Shown piece by piece: positions 14,942-20,378 of a DNA stretch of 32,490 bases (position 1 is its first letter; each line of letters begins with the position of its first letter). The stretch is from Bacteroidota bacterium (lineage in GTDB: Bacteria > Bacteroidota > Bacteroidia > AKYH767-A > 2013-40CM-41-45). The notes beneath the pieces are model-generated. The model made no database searches, was not told the origin of the DNA, and was given only the letters and a program-made list of their open reading frames with translations. The position numbers and the translations under genes were made by a program. The stretch covers positions 1 to 32,490 of the forward strand of contig JAPLDB010000012.1 of the NCBI GenBank assembly GCA_026391975.1. The letters are read 5' to 3'.

Positions 14942-16786
14942 CTACATCCTTTCCGGCGCCACAATCCCCAACAACCGCAAACACTCTTTGATTACCTCTG
15001 CAGTCAGCGATGCAAGCTGCATGCGGTAAAGCGATGTGTTCTTATCAGCTTCGTCAACAATCACATTGTCATGGTAAAAATGGTTGAACGATTTGGCTAC
15101 CTCATAAACATAATTGGCAACCACAGCCGGCGAAAAATTCTCTGCTGCCTCTTTTACGATAGCAGGATATCGATAAAGTACCTTTATTACATTCTTATCT
15201 GCGGTCAGATTTCCGGCGTGTTGGTCATTGGCTTCTTGCTGCCCATTGCTGGCTGCTGCCTGCTTACTGCCGCTGCTTACTGCTGCTCCAAATACGAAAC
15301 CCCCTTTCCTGATCACACTCCTGATCCGCGCATGTGTGTACTGAATAAACGGTCCTGTATTTCCGTTCAGGTCAATACTCTCCGCCGGATTGAAAAGCAT
15401 TTTCTTTTTCGGATCCACCTTCAGGATAAAATACTTGAGTGCTCCCATTCCAATTGTGTGGTACAATTGCTTGGCTTCTTCGCTGTCAAAATCGTCAAGC
15501 TTGCCGAGTGCTTTGGTTGTCATCTCTGCTTCTTCATCGATCTCCTTAATCAAATCGTCAGCATCCACCACTGTCCCTTCACGCGATTTCATTTTTCCGG
15601 AAGGAAGATCTACCATTCCGTAGGATAAATGGAACAAGCCATCTGCCCATGGTCGCCCGAGTTTTTTGAAAATCTCTTTCAGCACTTTGAAATGGTATTC
15701 CTGCTCATTGCCTACAACATAGATGAGCTGTTGCAATCCGTCAAACTCATCGAAGCGGAGTGACGCAGTTCCTAGATCCTGTGTGATGTAAACGGAAGTG
15801 CCATCTGCCCTCAATAAAACTTTCTGATCAAGGCCCACATCAGTGAGGTCAATCCAGATGGAGCCGTCATCCTTCTTAAAAAATGCTCCTTTGCTCACTC
15901 CTTCCTCCACAATCTTTTTTCCGAGGAGGTAGGTTTGAGATTCATAATATATTTTATCGAAATCAACAGCCAGTTTTTTATAGCTGATGTCAAAACCCTC
16001 ATACACCCAGCCATTCATCATTTTCCAGAGATCCATCGTTTCCTTATCACCTGCTTCCCATTTCAACAACATTTCCTGGATCTCCTTTACAATTGGCGCA
16101 TTCTTTTCAGCATCTTCCTTACTTATACCATTGTGAACAAGATGAGCGACTTCCTCTTTGAATTTTTTGTCGTACTCTACATAGTATTTACCGACAAGAT
16201 GATCCCCTTTTGTATGCGAAGATTTCGGTGTTTCGCCGTGCCCGTATTTTTTCCATGCCAGCATGCTCTTGCAGATGTGGATACCCCGGTCATTGACAAG
16301 ATTCACTTTCTCAACTCTGTGTCCAACCGCCAGGAGAATTTCTGCCACTGAATAACCAAGCAGAATATTCCGCATGTGACCTAGATGCAACGGTTTGTTG
16401 GTATTCGGTGAAGAATACTCCACCATTAAATGGCCCGGCGTTGAATATGTTTTCTTCAGGTTAATGAAATCCTTGCAATTTCCTGATGCATTCACAAAAA
16501 AATCTTTCCAAAAGGTATCGCTGATTGATAGATTTAAAAATCCCTTCACCACATTGAAAGCTGAAACCAACTTACAGTTTGCAATCAGTAATTCCCCGAT
16601 TTCATTTCCTGTCTGTTCGGGAGATTTTTTTGAAGCTTTGGTGTAGGGAAAAACTACCAGTGTTACATCTCCTTCAAAATCTTTTTTTGTTTCGTCAAGT
16701 TTGATTTCATCAGGGGAAACGGAAAGAGTGTAGAGGTTATGAAGTGTATCGGCAATTGCGGATTTTAATTCGGATTCGAAGGTCAC
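14942..16786 (-). CDS. argS: Arginyl-tRNA synthetase
   Basis: The 614-residue protein begins with a GTG at 16786 (MTFESELKSAIADTL); no ATG is near and the alignment with ArgS N-termini is natural. Motifs are the class I HLGH signature (134-137, within SPNTNKPLHLGHMRN), the arginine-binding region, the KMKSREGTVV segment replacing KMSKS, and YTHARI of the anticodon-binding half. It charges tRNA-Arg in the cytoplasm. Residues about 501-530 (from AAVSSGSKQ to HAGNLTA) are a low-complexity segment encoded by intergenic-type word repeats and appear to be an insertion; the length is somewhat above the usual 590-600. Its neighbours arginase and arginine decarboxylase also act on arginine. Confidence 0.95.
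   Translation of the reverse strand: MTFESELKSAIADTLHNLYTLSVSPDEIKLDETKKDFEGDVTLVVFPYTKASKKSPEQTGNEIGELLIANCKLVSAFNVVKGFLNLSISDTFWKDFFVNASGNCKDFINLKKTYSTPGHLMVEYSSPNTNKPLHLGHMRNILLGYSVAEILLAVGHRVEKVNLVNDRGIHICKSMLAWKKYGHGETPKSSHTKGDHLVGKYYVEYDKKFKEEVAHLVHNGISKEDAEKNAPIVKEIQEMLLKWEAGDKETMDLWKMMNGWVYEGFDISYKKLAVDFDKIYYESQTYLLGKKIVEEGVSKGAFFKKDDGSIWIDLTDVGLDQKVLLRADGTSVYITQDLGTASLRFDEFDGLQQLIYVVGNEQEYHFKVLKEIFKKLGRPWADGLFHLSYGMVDLPSGKMKSREGTVVDADDLIKEIDEEAEMTTKALGKLDDFDSEEAKQLYHTIGMGALKYFILKVDPKKKMLFNPAESIDLNGNTGPFIQYTHARIRSVIRKGGFVFGAAVSSGSKQAAASNGQQEANDQHAGNLTADKNVIKVLYRYPAIVKEAAENFSPAVVANYVYEVAKSFNHFYHDNVIVDEADKNTSLYRMQLASLTAEVIKECLRLLGIVAPERM
15197..15286 (-). repeat. Word-repeat insertion inside argS
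   Basis: On the plus strand the stretch contains GTCATTGG, GCTTCTTGCTGCCCATTGCT and GGCTGCTGCCTGCTTACTGC, then CGCTGCTTACTGCTGC. The same words (GTCATTGG, GGCTG, TGCTNCCTG) build the intergenic repeat at 7862-8040. It is in frame (90 nt) and replaces the linker between YTHARIRSVIRKGGFVF and VIKVLYRYPAIVKEAA. Confidence 0.55.
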
Positions 16787-16926
16787 TGTCGTTGATTTGT
16801 TGATTTGAAGATGTGCTGATTTGAAAATTTGAAGATCTGGAGATTAGGAACAGCCGGGTTGAATAGTTGAATAGTTAATTAGTTGATTGCAAATTATTGA
16901 CATGAATCAACTATTTACCTTCTGAA
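16787..16926. repeat. GATTTG/GAAGATGTG word repeat 5' of argS
   Basis: GTTGATTTG occurs twice, followed by GAAGATGTGCTGATTTGAAA and ATTTGAAGATCTGG, then GTTGAATAGTTGAATAGTTA and ATTAGTTGATTG. No clear promoter element can be picked out of the repeats, although argS must be expressed from here or from the arginase gene. Confidence 0.6.
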
Positions 16927-17871
16927 CTAATAAACTAGCTGACTTACTACCCGTTGCAGGATCTCAAAGGTATTCTCAGCCATGAGGTTTTCTTTGTCCA
17001 GCGTGGGATTTACTTCAGCGATTTCGAAGCAGCAGACTTTTTCATTCTGGATCAGGCGGACGAGCAAGCTACCAGCTTCCTTTTCAGTAATTCCATTTCG
17101 CACGGGTGTTCCGGTTCCTTTCGATATAGAAGAATCCATGGAGTCCACATCAAATGAAATATACAGGAGATTACAACGGTTGAGGTGTTGCAAAGCGTCA
17201 CGGGCAATTTTCTCCACACCATTTCTTTTTACTTCACTTGTGCTGAAAATCTTAACTTTATTCTTCTTCAGCAGGTATGATTCCTCCGGTTCTACGTCTC
17301 TCAAACCGATGTAAACGATGTCGTTCCATTCGATCTTTGGAAAAATATTACCGATCTTCTTTATTTTATTCCAGGACTCCAACGTTTCTTTATCAGGCTT
17401 GTTCATCTTATTGCTCTGGTTGTCTTCTCCCATGGCAGCAGAAATCGGCATACCGTGCATATTGCCGGAAGGCGTCGTCCATGGTGAATGAAGATCGGCA
17501 TGCGCATCGATCCAGATGACTCCCAGCCGCTGGCGCGGATAGGCCATACGGATCCCGGCAATGGTACCTCCCGCAGTACTGTGATCTCCTGCAAGGACCA
17601 CAGGGAATTCATTATTCTTGAGAGCGCTTTTTACAGCATTGGAAACCCTGTCATACATTGTAAGCATCCCTTTGATCCGCTTGGCATATGGGCTTCCGGA
17701 GGATTCAAACAGCAAATGGTTCTCATTTGGAACCTCTACCGATTCAATCTTCTTGAACAGGTTGCTTCCATAATCCAAAGCTGCGATTTTAATGGCATCC
17801 ACGCCCATGGAAGCGCCACGGGTGCCGGCTCCGATTTCAGATTTTACTTCTATAAACTTAAGCTTCTTCAT
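16927..17871 (-). CDS. rocF: Arginase (ureohydrolase family)
   Basis: The 314-residue protein has all manganese-site motifs: AGDHSTAGG (His97), DAHADLHSP (Asp122, His124, Asp126) and SFDVDSMDSS. PSGNMHGMP follows the second motif; this PSGNxHGxP signature favours arginase over agmatinase. It hydrolyses arginine to ornithine and urea. Across a 275-bp gap lies the divergent arginine decarboxylase, which competes for arginine; if the enzyme were instead an agmatinase the pair would make putrescine, but the motif argues against that. A TAGATTCG at 17891-17884 on the coding strand resembles the -7 element and is part of an ATTCGT word array. Confidence 0.85.
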   Translation of the reverse strand: MKKLKFIEVKSEIGAGTRGASMGVDAIKIAALDYGSNLFKKIESVEVPNENHLLFESSGSPYAKRIKGMLTMYDRVSNAVKSALKNNEFPVVLAGDHSTAGGTIAGIRMAYPRQRLGVIWIDAHADLHSPWTTPSGNMHGMPISAAMGEDNQSNKMNKPDKETLESWNKIKKIGNIFPKIEWNDIVYIGLRDVEPEESYLLKKNKVKIFSTSEVKRNGVEKIARDALQHLNRCNLLYISFDVDSMDSSISKGTGTPVRNGITEKEAGSLLVRLIQNEKVCCFEIAEVNPTLDKENLMAENTFEILQRVVSQLVY

Positions 17872-17879
17872 GGGTACTA

Positions 17880-17970
17880 ATTACGAATCTATACGAATTT
17901 ACCAATTGTACGAATAACGAATAACTGATAACGAACATCCGCCAAGTCGTGGCGAATTTACGAATAACTG
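17880..17970. repeat. ACGAAT word array with CGCCA...TGGCG palindrome
   Basis: ACGAAT occurs at least five times (ATTACGAATCTATACGAATT, TACGAATAACGAATAACTG, TTTACGAATAACTG). CGCCAAGTCGTGGCG at 17940-17954 is a 5-bp stem palindrome. It lies in the divergent gap between arginase and arginine decarboxylase; the words read ATTCGT on the arginase coding strand. Confidence 0.7.
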
Positions 17971-18035
17971 AAGGTATAGTTCCATTATTGCAATTCAATT
18001 CTGATGAAAATATTTTCAATAATCCTGCAGTATGT

Positions 18036-18043
18036 TACTTTTG
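18036..18043 (+). promoter_or_regulatory. -7 element ahead of arginine decarboxylase
   Basis: TACTTTTG fits TAnnTTTG. It would give a leader of about 97 nt that contains the palindrome TCCCGACAGATCGGGA (18106-18121). No convincing -33 TTG is seen. The long leader is unusual for this window. Confidence 0.4.
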
Positions 18044-18105
18044 TAAATCCAACTCACTTACATTCGCGAAGAATTACGAATCCAACTGTGTTGGTTTTAA
18101 CCTCA

Positions 18106-18121
18106 TCCCGACAGATCGGGA
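18106..18121. repeat. TCCCGA/TCGGGA palindrome in the speA leader
   Basis: TCCCGA and TCGGGA form a 6-bp stem around CAGA. Relatives occur at 19586-19601 (TCCCGACCCATCGGGA) and 22702-22719 (TCCCCATAGTTATCGGGA). All three sit in gaps that also carry ACGAAT/ATTCGT words. Confidence 0.65.
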
Positions 18122-18146
18122 CCAAAACTACAAACCTCAAACCTCC

Positions 18147-19550
18147 ATGAAGAATACCTATCGCGACCTTGTTGAACAAACATTTTACTTTCCGCAGGAG
18201 GGTTTTGAAGTGGTTGACCACAACCTGAACTTTTATGGTATTGACCTGATGGATATTATCAAGCAATACGGAACTCCCCTCAAGATCTCCTACCTTCCCA
18301 AGATTGGCTCGCAAATTAAGAAAGCCAAACGGATTTTCAACGTTGCGATTGCAAAGAATGATTACAAAGGCACGTATACCTATTGCTACTGCACAAAAAG
18401 CTCTCATTTTTCATTTATCCTTGATGAAGTATTGAAACATGACGTTCACCTTGAAACTTCTTCGGCTTTTGACATTGACCTTATCAAATCACTGTTCCAG
18501 ACAAAGAAGATCGACAAGAACACTGTTATCATCTGCAACGGATTCAAGCGCCCTCAATACATTAAGGGAATTGCCGATCTCGTGAACGGTGGGTTTAACA
18601 ATGTCATTCCTGTGATTGACAACATGAATGAACTGGATCATTATCCAAAATTCCTGAAAGGAAAAAAGAAAGTGAAGATCGGGATCCGGATTGCTTCTGA
18701 AGAAGAACCGAATTTTGAATTTTATACTTCGCGACTGGGTATCCGTTACAGTGAAATCAAAGACTATTTTGTAAAAAGCATCAAAAAAAATAAACAGTTT
18801 CAACTGAAGATGCTTCACTTCTTCATTAACACAGGTATCAAGGACAATGCCTACTACTGGAGTGAATTGAACAAATGCGTGAACGTTTATTGCGAACTGA
18901 AAAAGATCTGTCCGGAGCTTGACTCTCTCGACATCGGTGGTGGATGGCCAATTCGCAAGTCGCTTGGATTTGAATACGATTATGAATACATGGCTGAACA
19001 GATTGTAAAACAGATTAAAACAACGTGCAGGGCACAGGGTGTTGCTGAGCCCAACCTGTTTACCGAATTTGGCAGCTTTACAGTTGCGGAAAGCGGTGCT
19101 ACACTTTTTTCTGTAATAGATCAGAAACAGCAAAATGACAATGAACTGTGGTACATGATAGACAGTTCATTTATTACCACCCTTCCGGATACCTGGGGGA
19201 TTAAACAGAAATTTATTCTGTTGGCCATCAATCACTGGGAGAAGGACAGCGTGAGGGTGAACATTGGCGGACTTACCTGCGACAGCGACGATTACTACAA
19301 TACAGAGAGCCACGTCAACCAGGTTTACATGCCCAAAGAGGAAGACCTGAACGAAGATCCCCTGTACATCGGATTTTTCCATACTGGTGCATACCAGGAG
19401 AGTCTGGGCGGCTATGGAGGCATCCAGCATTGCCTTATTCCGGCGCCAAAGCATGTGATCATTGACCGGGAAGAAGACTGGGAAATTGTTACCAAGCTTT
19501 TTGCTAAGGAACAGAGTGCAAAAAGCATGATGAAAATACTGGGGTATTAG
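18147..19550 (+). CDS. speA: Arginine decarboxylase (fold III PLP enzyme, short Bacteroidota type)
   Basis: From ATG 18147 (MKNTYRDLVEQTFYFPQEGF) the protein is 467 residues; the open frame runs 66 codons further upstream through repeats, which are not coding. The alanine-racemase-like barrel has the PLP lysine most likely at Lys84 in YCYCTKSSHF, the phosphate-binding LDIGGGWP (Gly264-266), and the beta domain has GGLTCDSDD with Cys378/Asp379, the cross-subunit CxSxD-type active site. It turns arginine into agmatine, the first step of the agmatine route to putrescine and spermidine. It lacks the long insertions of E. coli SpeA (about 650 residues). Agmatine-processing genes are not in the window. 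Confidence 0.88.
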   Translation: MKNTYRDLVEQTFYFPQEGFEVVDHNLNFYGIDLMDIIKQYGTPLKISYLPKIGSQIKKAKRIFNVAIAKNDYKGTYTYCYCTKSSHFSFILDEVLKHDVHLETSSAFDIDLIKSLFQTKKIDKNTVIICNGFKRPQYIKGIADLVNGGFNNVIPVIDNMNELDHYPKFLKGKKKVKIGIRIASEEEPNFEFYTSRLGIRYSEIKDYFVKSIKKNKQFQLKMLHFFINTGIKDNAYYWSELNKCVNVYCELKKICPELDSLDIGGGWPIRKSLGFEYDYEYMAEQIVKQIKTTCRAQGVAEPNLFTEFGSFTVAESGATLFSVIDQKQQNDNELWYMIDSSFITTLPDTWGIKQKFILLAINHWEKDSVRVNIGGLTCDSDDYYNTESHVNQVYMPKEEDLNEDPLYIGFFHTGAYQESLGGYGGIQHCLIPAPKHVIIDREEDWEIVTKLFAKEQSAKSMMKILGY

Positions 19551-19817: not shown

Positions 19818-20378
19818 ATGGCAAAAATCAATGATGTTAAACCGGGTGCTTTCCTGAGGTATAACAATGAACTGGTGCAAGTTACGGAAGTCATTCACCG
19901 TACACCGGGCAACCTGCGCGCCTTTTATCAGGCGAAAATGAAAAATCTGAAAAACGGAAAGGTTGTCGAAAACCGTTTTCGCGCAGATGAAGAAGTGGAA
20001 ATGGTCAGGGTTGAATTCAGAGAAATGCAATTCATCTACCCTGAAGGAGAACATCTGGTGGTGATGGATCCTACATCATTTGAGCAAATTCATATTCCAA
20101 AAGTACTTTTTGGAGACAGTTCACAATTGCTGAAGGAAGGCATGACTGTGAAGGTTGCGTTTGAAAGCGAAGAACCAATCAGTGCTGAACCACCGACATT
20201 TGTTGAGTTGGAAGTGACCTATACAGAGCCGGGGGTTCGCGGAGATACTGCTACCAATACTCTTAAAGCTGCCACTGTTGAAACAGGGGCAACAATCCAG
20301 GTTCCTCTTTTTGTAAATATCGGCGAGGTAATTAAGATTGACACCCGTGAGTGGAGCTACGTTGGGAAAGTGAAATAA
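19818..20378 (+). CDS. efp: Translation elongation factor P with PGNLR loop
   Basis: From ATG 19818 (MAKINDVKPGAFLRYNNELV) the protein is 186 residues, normal for EF-P, with an N-terminal KOW-like domain (1-63), a central OB domain (about 65-127, with EFREMQFIYPEGEHLVVMD) and a C-terminal OB domain (VELEVTYTEPGVRGDT to IKIDTREWSYVGKV). EF-P rescues ribosomes stalled on polyproline. The loop that reaches the peptidyl-transferase centre reads TPGNLRAF, with Asn32 where E. coli has Lys34 and Pseudomonas has Arg32, so neither the lysylation nor the rhamnosylation target is present. I recall the same loop in other Bacteroidota. No modification enzyme gene is nearby. Confidence 0.95.
   Translation: MAKINDVKPGAFLRYNNELVQVTEVIHRTPGNLRAFYQAKMKNLKNGKVVENRFRADEEVEMVRVEFREMQFIYPEGEHLVVMDPTSFEQIHIPKVLFGDSSQLLKEGMTVKVAFESEEPISAEPPTFVELEVTYTEPGVRGDTATNTLKAATVETGATIQVPLFVNIGEVIKIDTREWSYVGKVK

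Follow-up and report, generated by a model that had tools for sequence, protein, structure and literature searches.

The efp gene studied here raises the question of how an elongation factor P (EF-P), which assists ribosomes in translating consecutive prolines, works when the tip of its β3-β4 loop carries asparagine in place of the lysine or arginine that is modified in other bacteria. The gene lies at positions 19818 to 20378 of the forward strand of the window, by which we mean the whole stretch of 32,490 nucleotides of Bacteroidota DNA that was analyzed. It begins with ATG at 19818, its stop codon ends at 20378, and the encoded protein of 186 amino acids is the only EF-P copy found in the source genome, whose assembly is 98.05% complete. 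In the ORF translation, the loop reads TPGNLRAF (residues 29–36; positions 19902–19925, forward strand) from the codons ACA CCG GGC AAC CTG CGC GCC TTT, with Asn32 at the tip (AAC, 19911–19913), Leu33 behind it (CTG, 19914–19916), and Arg34 two positions on (CGC, 19917–19919). The alignment with Thermus EF-P pairs Asn32 with Arg32, and that with E. coli EF-P (6enj_w), in which residues 5–186 of the query lie on residues 7–188 of the chain, puts Asn32 at E. coli position 34 and Arg34 at position 36, assuming no intervening gap. The preliminary description of this locus had already placed asparagine at the tip and arginine two positions after it; both placements are confirmed.

The protein belongs to the NCBIfam efp equivalog TIGR00038, which it matches over residues 3–185 with 228.8 bits against a cut-off of 185.8. 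The AlphaFold2 model, computed from an input alignment of 73 sequences including the window EF-P itself, has a mean pLDDT of 90.1 and a pTM of 0.71 and predicts the three-domain EF-P fold. In a Foldseek search with this model, the best match was Thermus thermophilus EF-P (1ueb_A, TM 0.90); E. coli EF-P (6enj_w) matched with a TM of 0.87, and the Corynebacterium structure 6s8z was also among the matches. The identity of the protein as EfpL (YeiP) is ruled out because its scores are far below the EfpL cut-offs, namely, 101.7 of 264 bits for TIGR02178 and 112.4 of 216 bits for NF003392, and because its loop has no arginine apex. Among the types of EF-P, the combination of an asparagine tip with proline at −2 (P30-G31-N32) is that of the asparagine type. 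Asn32 separates the protein from the EpmA-dependent lysine type and the YmfI-dependent types, which have a lysine tip, and the presence of Pro30 together with Asn32 separates it from the EarP-dependent arginine type, which has an arginine tip and no proline at −2. We lean toward regarding it as an asparagine-type EF-P that functions normally and would probably have no need of the known tip modifications.

The asparagine tip as such is not new. It accounts for 2.23% of the 1166 EF-Ps counted by Volkwein (2019), always with proline at −2 (PMC6544042), which is the same category as that of the window protein, and asparagine also appears among the EF-P tips in the EfpL paper (PMC11611912); here and below, published statements are taken from parts of the articles cited. 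The main-text sections of Volkwein 2019 consulted here count the residue and make no mention of coupled residues at +1 and +2, of switching as a block, or of genomes with both asparagine and lysine copies (PMC6544042). Our searches of the open-access literature found no functional or mass-spectrometric data on a native asparagine-type EF-P, no paper on Flavobacterium johnsoniae EF-P, and, among papers containing the loop strings PGNLR, PGNWR, or PGNLRAF, none that concerns EF-P judging by its title. Compared with the literature consulted, the sequences collected in the present study define the asparagine type better, as a cassette of three residues that switch together.

To place the window protein in its phylum, 395 genomes were searched, and EF-P was found in 386 of them with the Pfam model and in 387 with the window protein as the query. 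Loops were read from part of these genomes and from 80 named loci, which gave 275 ORFs, 261 of them distinct, in a sample that leaned to the best matches of the two queries and is not random. In the 172 individually labeled genomes, which represent 51 families, asparagine tips occur in 90, a number that is not a frequency because the genomes were chosen partly by their likeness to the window EF-P. Sorted by the tips they hold, 78 of these genomes have asparagine only, 75 lysine only, eight both lysine and asparagine, seven arginine only, two asparagine and arginine, and two asparagine and glutamine. All 80 named loci, which include Sphingobacterium, Pedobacter, Mucilaginibacter, Olivibacter, and Parapedobacter, are of the asparagine type, but they are the best 80 of 574 matches to query sequences of that same type. 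The loop HRTPGNLRAFYQ was read in 148 of the 275 ORFs (with the window's own counted twice), so the asparagine tip is not a sequencing accident. The pattern H..PG[N/K].RAF is present in 164 of the 395 genomes, of which at least two (G194 and G254) have a lysine-type EF-P, so that their match must lie elsewhere; a broader N-x-R pattern was dropped as a phylum screen because it was unspecific, with 379 of the 395 genomes matching, many at several places. The preliminary description had supposed that the loop is a lineage trait of Bacteroidota rather than a mutation. It is indeed a lineage trait, and the asparagine-tipped EF-P is a frequent form in the phylum, yet it is not phylum-wide, given the genomes with lysine or arginine only, and some genomes hold two types.

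Among the 261 distinct Bacteroidota EF-Ps, Asn32 hardly ever occurs without the same partner. Position 34 is arginine in 165 of the 166 distinct asparagine-tipped proteins and histidine in the remaining one, while residue 33 is leucine in 153, tryptophan in 11, lysine in two, and glycine in none. The 84 lysine-tipped proteins all have glycine at 33, and their residue 34 is glycine, proline, alanine, or asparagine in 83 and arginine in one. Pro30 is present in all 250 asparagine- and lysine-tipped proteins and absent in the 11 with arginine or glutamine tips. The only mixed cassettes read were PGKGRAS (L096, G128) and PGNLHAF (L182, G125); neither a lysine tip with a bulky residue 33 nor an asparagine tip with Gly33 was found among the 250 proteins. 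The change from AAC (Asn32) to a lysine codon (AAA) takes a single third-base substitution, and the rarity of mixed forms in spite of this counts in favor of coupling. The tip, as read from the alignments, is a co-inherited cassette of Asn32, a bulky residue (leucine, tryptophan, or rarely lysine), and Arg34, which replaces the usual set of lysine, glycine, and a small residue. Residue 33, which is leucine, tryptophan, or lysine and never glycine, thus belongs to the pattern as well, a point beyond the preliminary description. Asn-Gly is a classic deamidation-prone pair, and deamidation may be one reason why the form with asparagine followed by Gly33 is missing.

It might be argued that the protein is simply a known asparagine-type EF-P in which Leu33 and Arg34 are lineage hitchhikers without functional meaning, given that most asparagine types share one background, that of the loop read in the 148 ORFs mentioned above, and that independent supported contrasts are few. 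The trees allow this to be weighed. With the loop columns left out, the best tree of 123 rows implies a minimum of eight changes at the tip residue. In a 56-row tree, seven Sphingobacteriaceae proteins with PGKGG group together in a clade (100/97) that is nested in a 19-row clade of the family (100/99), the other 12 rows of which are PGNLR, and this in turn lies inside a 32-row clade (99/96) whose remaining members are all PGNLR; a tree with all lysine types held together was rejected (p-AU 0.0003). Judging from these trees, all three positions of the cassette have switched together on more than one occasion. The simplest reading, with the 56-row tree being unrooted, is that an asparagine-type gene was duplicated and one copy turned into K-G-G; loop conversion between genes is also possible.

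Two contrasts between asparagine and lysine types bear directly on the hitchhiking of residues 33 and 34. The first, within Sphingobacteriaceae (38 versus nine distinct proteins, with no protein of the family excluded by the definition of the groups by tip type), has 15 separating columns, and the second, in families f18 and f36 with the lysine side drawn also from f47, sets PGNWR (once PGNLR) against PGKGG in six versus 22 proteins and has 17. Only columns 32, 33, and 34 separate the groups in both, column 32 by construction because the groups were set by the tip. Residues 33 and 34 therefore change with residue 32 on two different backgrounds, HRT...FYQ and HVN...FVR, and no further column follows this pattern on both; the Sphingobacteriaceae duplicate changed all three positions together. 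A third contrast, in family f9 (three asparagine versus five lysine types), is uninformative, with 79 differing columns. On the well-supported branches of the 123-row tree, there are only three independent pairs of asparagine and non-asparagine types, of which 2.8 on average have Arg34 in the same direction (sign test, p 0.25), and there are seven pairs when weak branches are included, so that the coupling of Asn32 and Arg34 rests largely on inheritance and a few switches. We consider mere hitchhiking unlikely.

In Sphingobacteriaceae, as we call family f2 because its rows share one clade with named members, both asparagine and lysine types were found in seven of 10 genomes, and G138, G080, and two named Pedobacter loci (L226 and L261) have the two genes as tandem neighbors. 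The second EF-P of this family, with the loop PGKGGAF, was seen in tandem at L036, L039, L068, L069, L226, and L261 and apart from the asparagine copy at L063–L067. It differs from the asparagine copies of the family in domain I by Y52A, F54M/L, R55N/A/G, and M41F.

If the cassette is a functional unit, a mechanism can be proposed from the behavior of E. coli EF-P, in which the K34N replacement alone yields a translationally inactive protein (PMC6544042), so that compensation is needed. Asparagine alone cannot make the contact to the CCA end of tRNA in E. coli EF-P, and the coupled Arg34, which retains a long, positively charged side chain at a loop position two residues further on, would be the obvious replacement; we think it rather probable that this arginine supplies the contact. 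Thermus EF-P, whose Arg32 lies near the PTC and contacts C75 (PMC2821294), and EfpL, whose R33 was found unmodified by mass spectrometry (PMC11611912), offer together a precedent for an arginine near C75. Leucine or tryptophan at 33, in place of the flexible glycine, would probably fix the turn, shaping or stiffening the loop. The preliminary description had named Arg34 as a candidate for the role of the tip residue, and that suggestion is strengthened by the nearly constant pairing with Asn32; the one natural asparagine type with His34 counts against it. The inactivity of K34N could also be taken to mean that these bacteria have little need of polyproline rescue and have let the loop drift, leaving a half-functional EF-P, and Pro-Pro-Pro is absent from the 22 window ORFs examined. 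Nine Pro-Pro motifs, however, occur in the same ORFs, six of them in an ORF of 1189 amino acids and one in EF-P itself, and a cassette that is all but invariant over 166 distinct proteins is the opposite of drift, which makes this explanation very unlikely.

The loop differs from those of the systems it most resembles. EfpL is an EF-P relative that functions without tip modification and whose arginine contacts the CCA end in a docking model (PMC11611912), but its loop is two residues longer and has the arginine at the apex. Thermus thermophilus EF-P (1ueb, 4v6a) is the closest solved fold, but its arginine stands at the tip itself and is followed by Gly-Gly. E. coli EF-P shares the fold, the position, and the proline at −2, whereas its cassette is Lys-Gly-Gln and is modified to the EpmA-made β-lysyl-K34. 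Actinobacterial EF-Ps with a PGKGP loop are said to work unmodified and would likewise avoid modification through loop composition, although they combine a lysine tip with proline at +2 instead of an asparagine tip with arginine at +2.

Of the searches for modification enzymes, the one for EpmA is consistent with a bare loop. In the comparison of loops with enzymes that the preliminary description had suggested, the EpmA model TIGR00462 had matches in all 80 genomes searched but none over the cut-off of 286.9 bits, which two of 14 control genomes exceeded; EarP (PF10093) had no match in 106 distinct genomes including the source genome, but none in the control genomes either, so that this negative is weak. 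The best TIGR00462 match of the source genome, 243.0 bits, lies in a frame of 581 amino acids, the length of a lysyl-tRNA synthetase, as do most of the best matches across the genomes. In organisms without yjeK and yjeA, Lys34 is reported to be kept in only 70% of EF-Ps (PMC2821294). This EF-P most likely works without any known tip modification.

A deoxyhypusine synthase (DHS)-like protein has been proposed to modify lysine- and asparagine-tipped EF-Ps, and DHS-like proteins have been noted in bacteria of both types (PMC6544042). The source genome has such a gene (C100:19467-20375, 133.8 bits; L002), as do 69 of 80 genomes, namely, 51 of 52 with an asparagine type, 18 of 27 with lysine only, and none of the one with arginine only. 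Its product contains a WGK stretch that resembles the site of the catalytic lysine in human DHS. The difference between asparagine-type and lysine-only genomes is significant by Fisher's test (p 0.0002) but is confounded by descent, with only two independent pairs on the tree, and DHS targets the amine of lysine, which this tip lacks. For these two reasons, the co-occurrence was dropped as evidence of EF-P modification. Bacterial DHS homologs are, moreover, known as homospermidine synthases, and modification of this EF-P by the DHS-like protein seems extremely improbable.

The main rival is that Asn32 or Arg34 receives a so far undescribed modification from an enzyme without homology to EpmA, EarP, or YmfI, with N-L/W-R as the recognition motif of that enzyme. 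A short, strictly kept motif does resemble the target of a modifying enzyme, arginine is already known as an acceptor at the EF-P loop through EarP, and an enzyme of a new kind would be invisible to homology searches; in Volkwein 2019, more than 50% of bacteria are stated to lack genes for any of the known EF-P modification enzymes (PMC6544042). Separate lineages, however, differ at residue 33, having leucine or tryptophan, and the searches for EpmA, EarP, and DHS brought up no candidate enzyme. Asparagine glycosylation uses an N-x-S/T sequon, which is absent from TPGNLRAF, and the side-chain amides of asparagine are poor nucleophiles. On this evidence, such a modification appears rather doubtful, while still the most serious competitor of a loop that works bare.

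Taking the bare loop further, we tentatively suggest that N-L/W-R constitutes a separate way of building the active loop of EF-P without modification, with the catalytic positive charge displaced by two residues along the hairpin. The flips between K-G and N-x-R might be possible only for the whole block because single-step intermediates fail, namely, a lysine tip with a bulky neighbor or the deamidation-prone Asn-Gly, and Sphingobacteriaceae with both forms might use them for different stalls, in an independent division of labor like that of EF-P and EfpL. If the N-x-R EF-P does work bare, loop composition alone can replace β-lysine or rhamnose, and the failure of K34N in E. coli would be explained by the two missing partner residues. 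The reported lack of known modification enzymes in more than half of bacteria (PMC6544042) gives a bare loop wider relevance, and Sphingobacteriaceae with asparagine and lysine copies, sometimes side by side, offer a natural comparison within the same cell.

The neighborhood of the gene might seem to hint at polyamines. Just upstream of efp, positions 14942–19550 of the window hold argS, an arginase-family gene (16927–17871, minus strand), and a short SpeA-like, arginine-decarboxylase-like gene (18147–19550), the last of which ends 267 bp before efp starts and encodes 467 amino acids scoring far below the SpeA cut-off. Neither a decarboxylase-like nor an arginase-family gene was found beside EF-P at 208 other loci at E ≤ 1e-10, of which 153 are flanked by 2.5 kb or more on each side, so the neighborhood was treated as incidental, and a hypusine-like or polyamine pathway link through the efp neighbors was rejected. 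No polyamine gene was recognized by eye in the 3.9 kb surrounding the DHS-like gene, which is on another contig.

A few EF-Ps have other unusual tips. In G365 (L122), the loop is MGRGSGF, and this genome had no DHS-like match, no EpmA match over the cut-off, and no EarP match, the last being true also of the control genomes. The only EF-P found in six genomes of family f3 (L167–L172) has the loop TARAAAK, with an arginine tip and no proline at −2; the protein of L172 is far below the EfpL cut-offs, and EarP was matched neither in 13 genomes of this family nor in the control genomes. An arginine tip without proline (HVQTGRGGAYYQ) also occurs in a second EF-P beside an asparagine-type copy in G389 and G196 (L071 and L073), where EarP again had no match, as in the control genomes. 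Finally, G337 (L174) and G228 (L175), whose main EF-P is of the asparagine type, carry a second EF-P with a glutamine tip (SGQMQGF).
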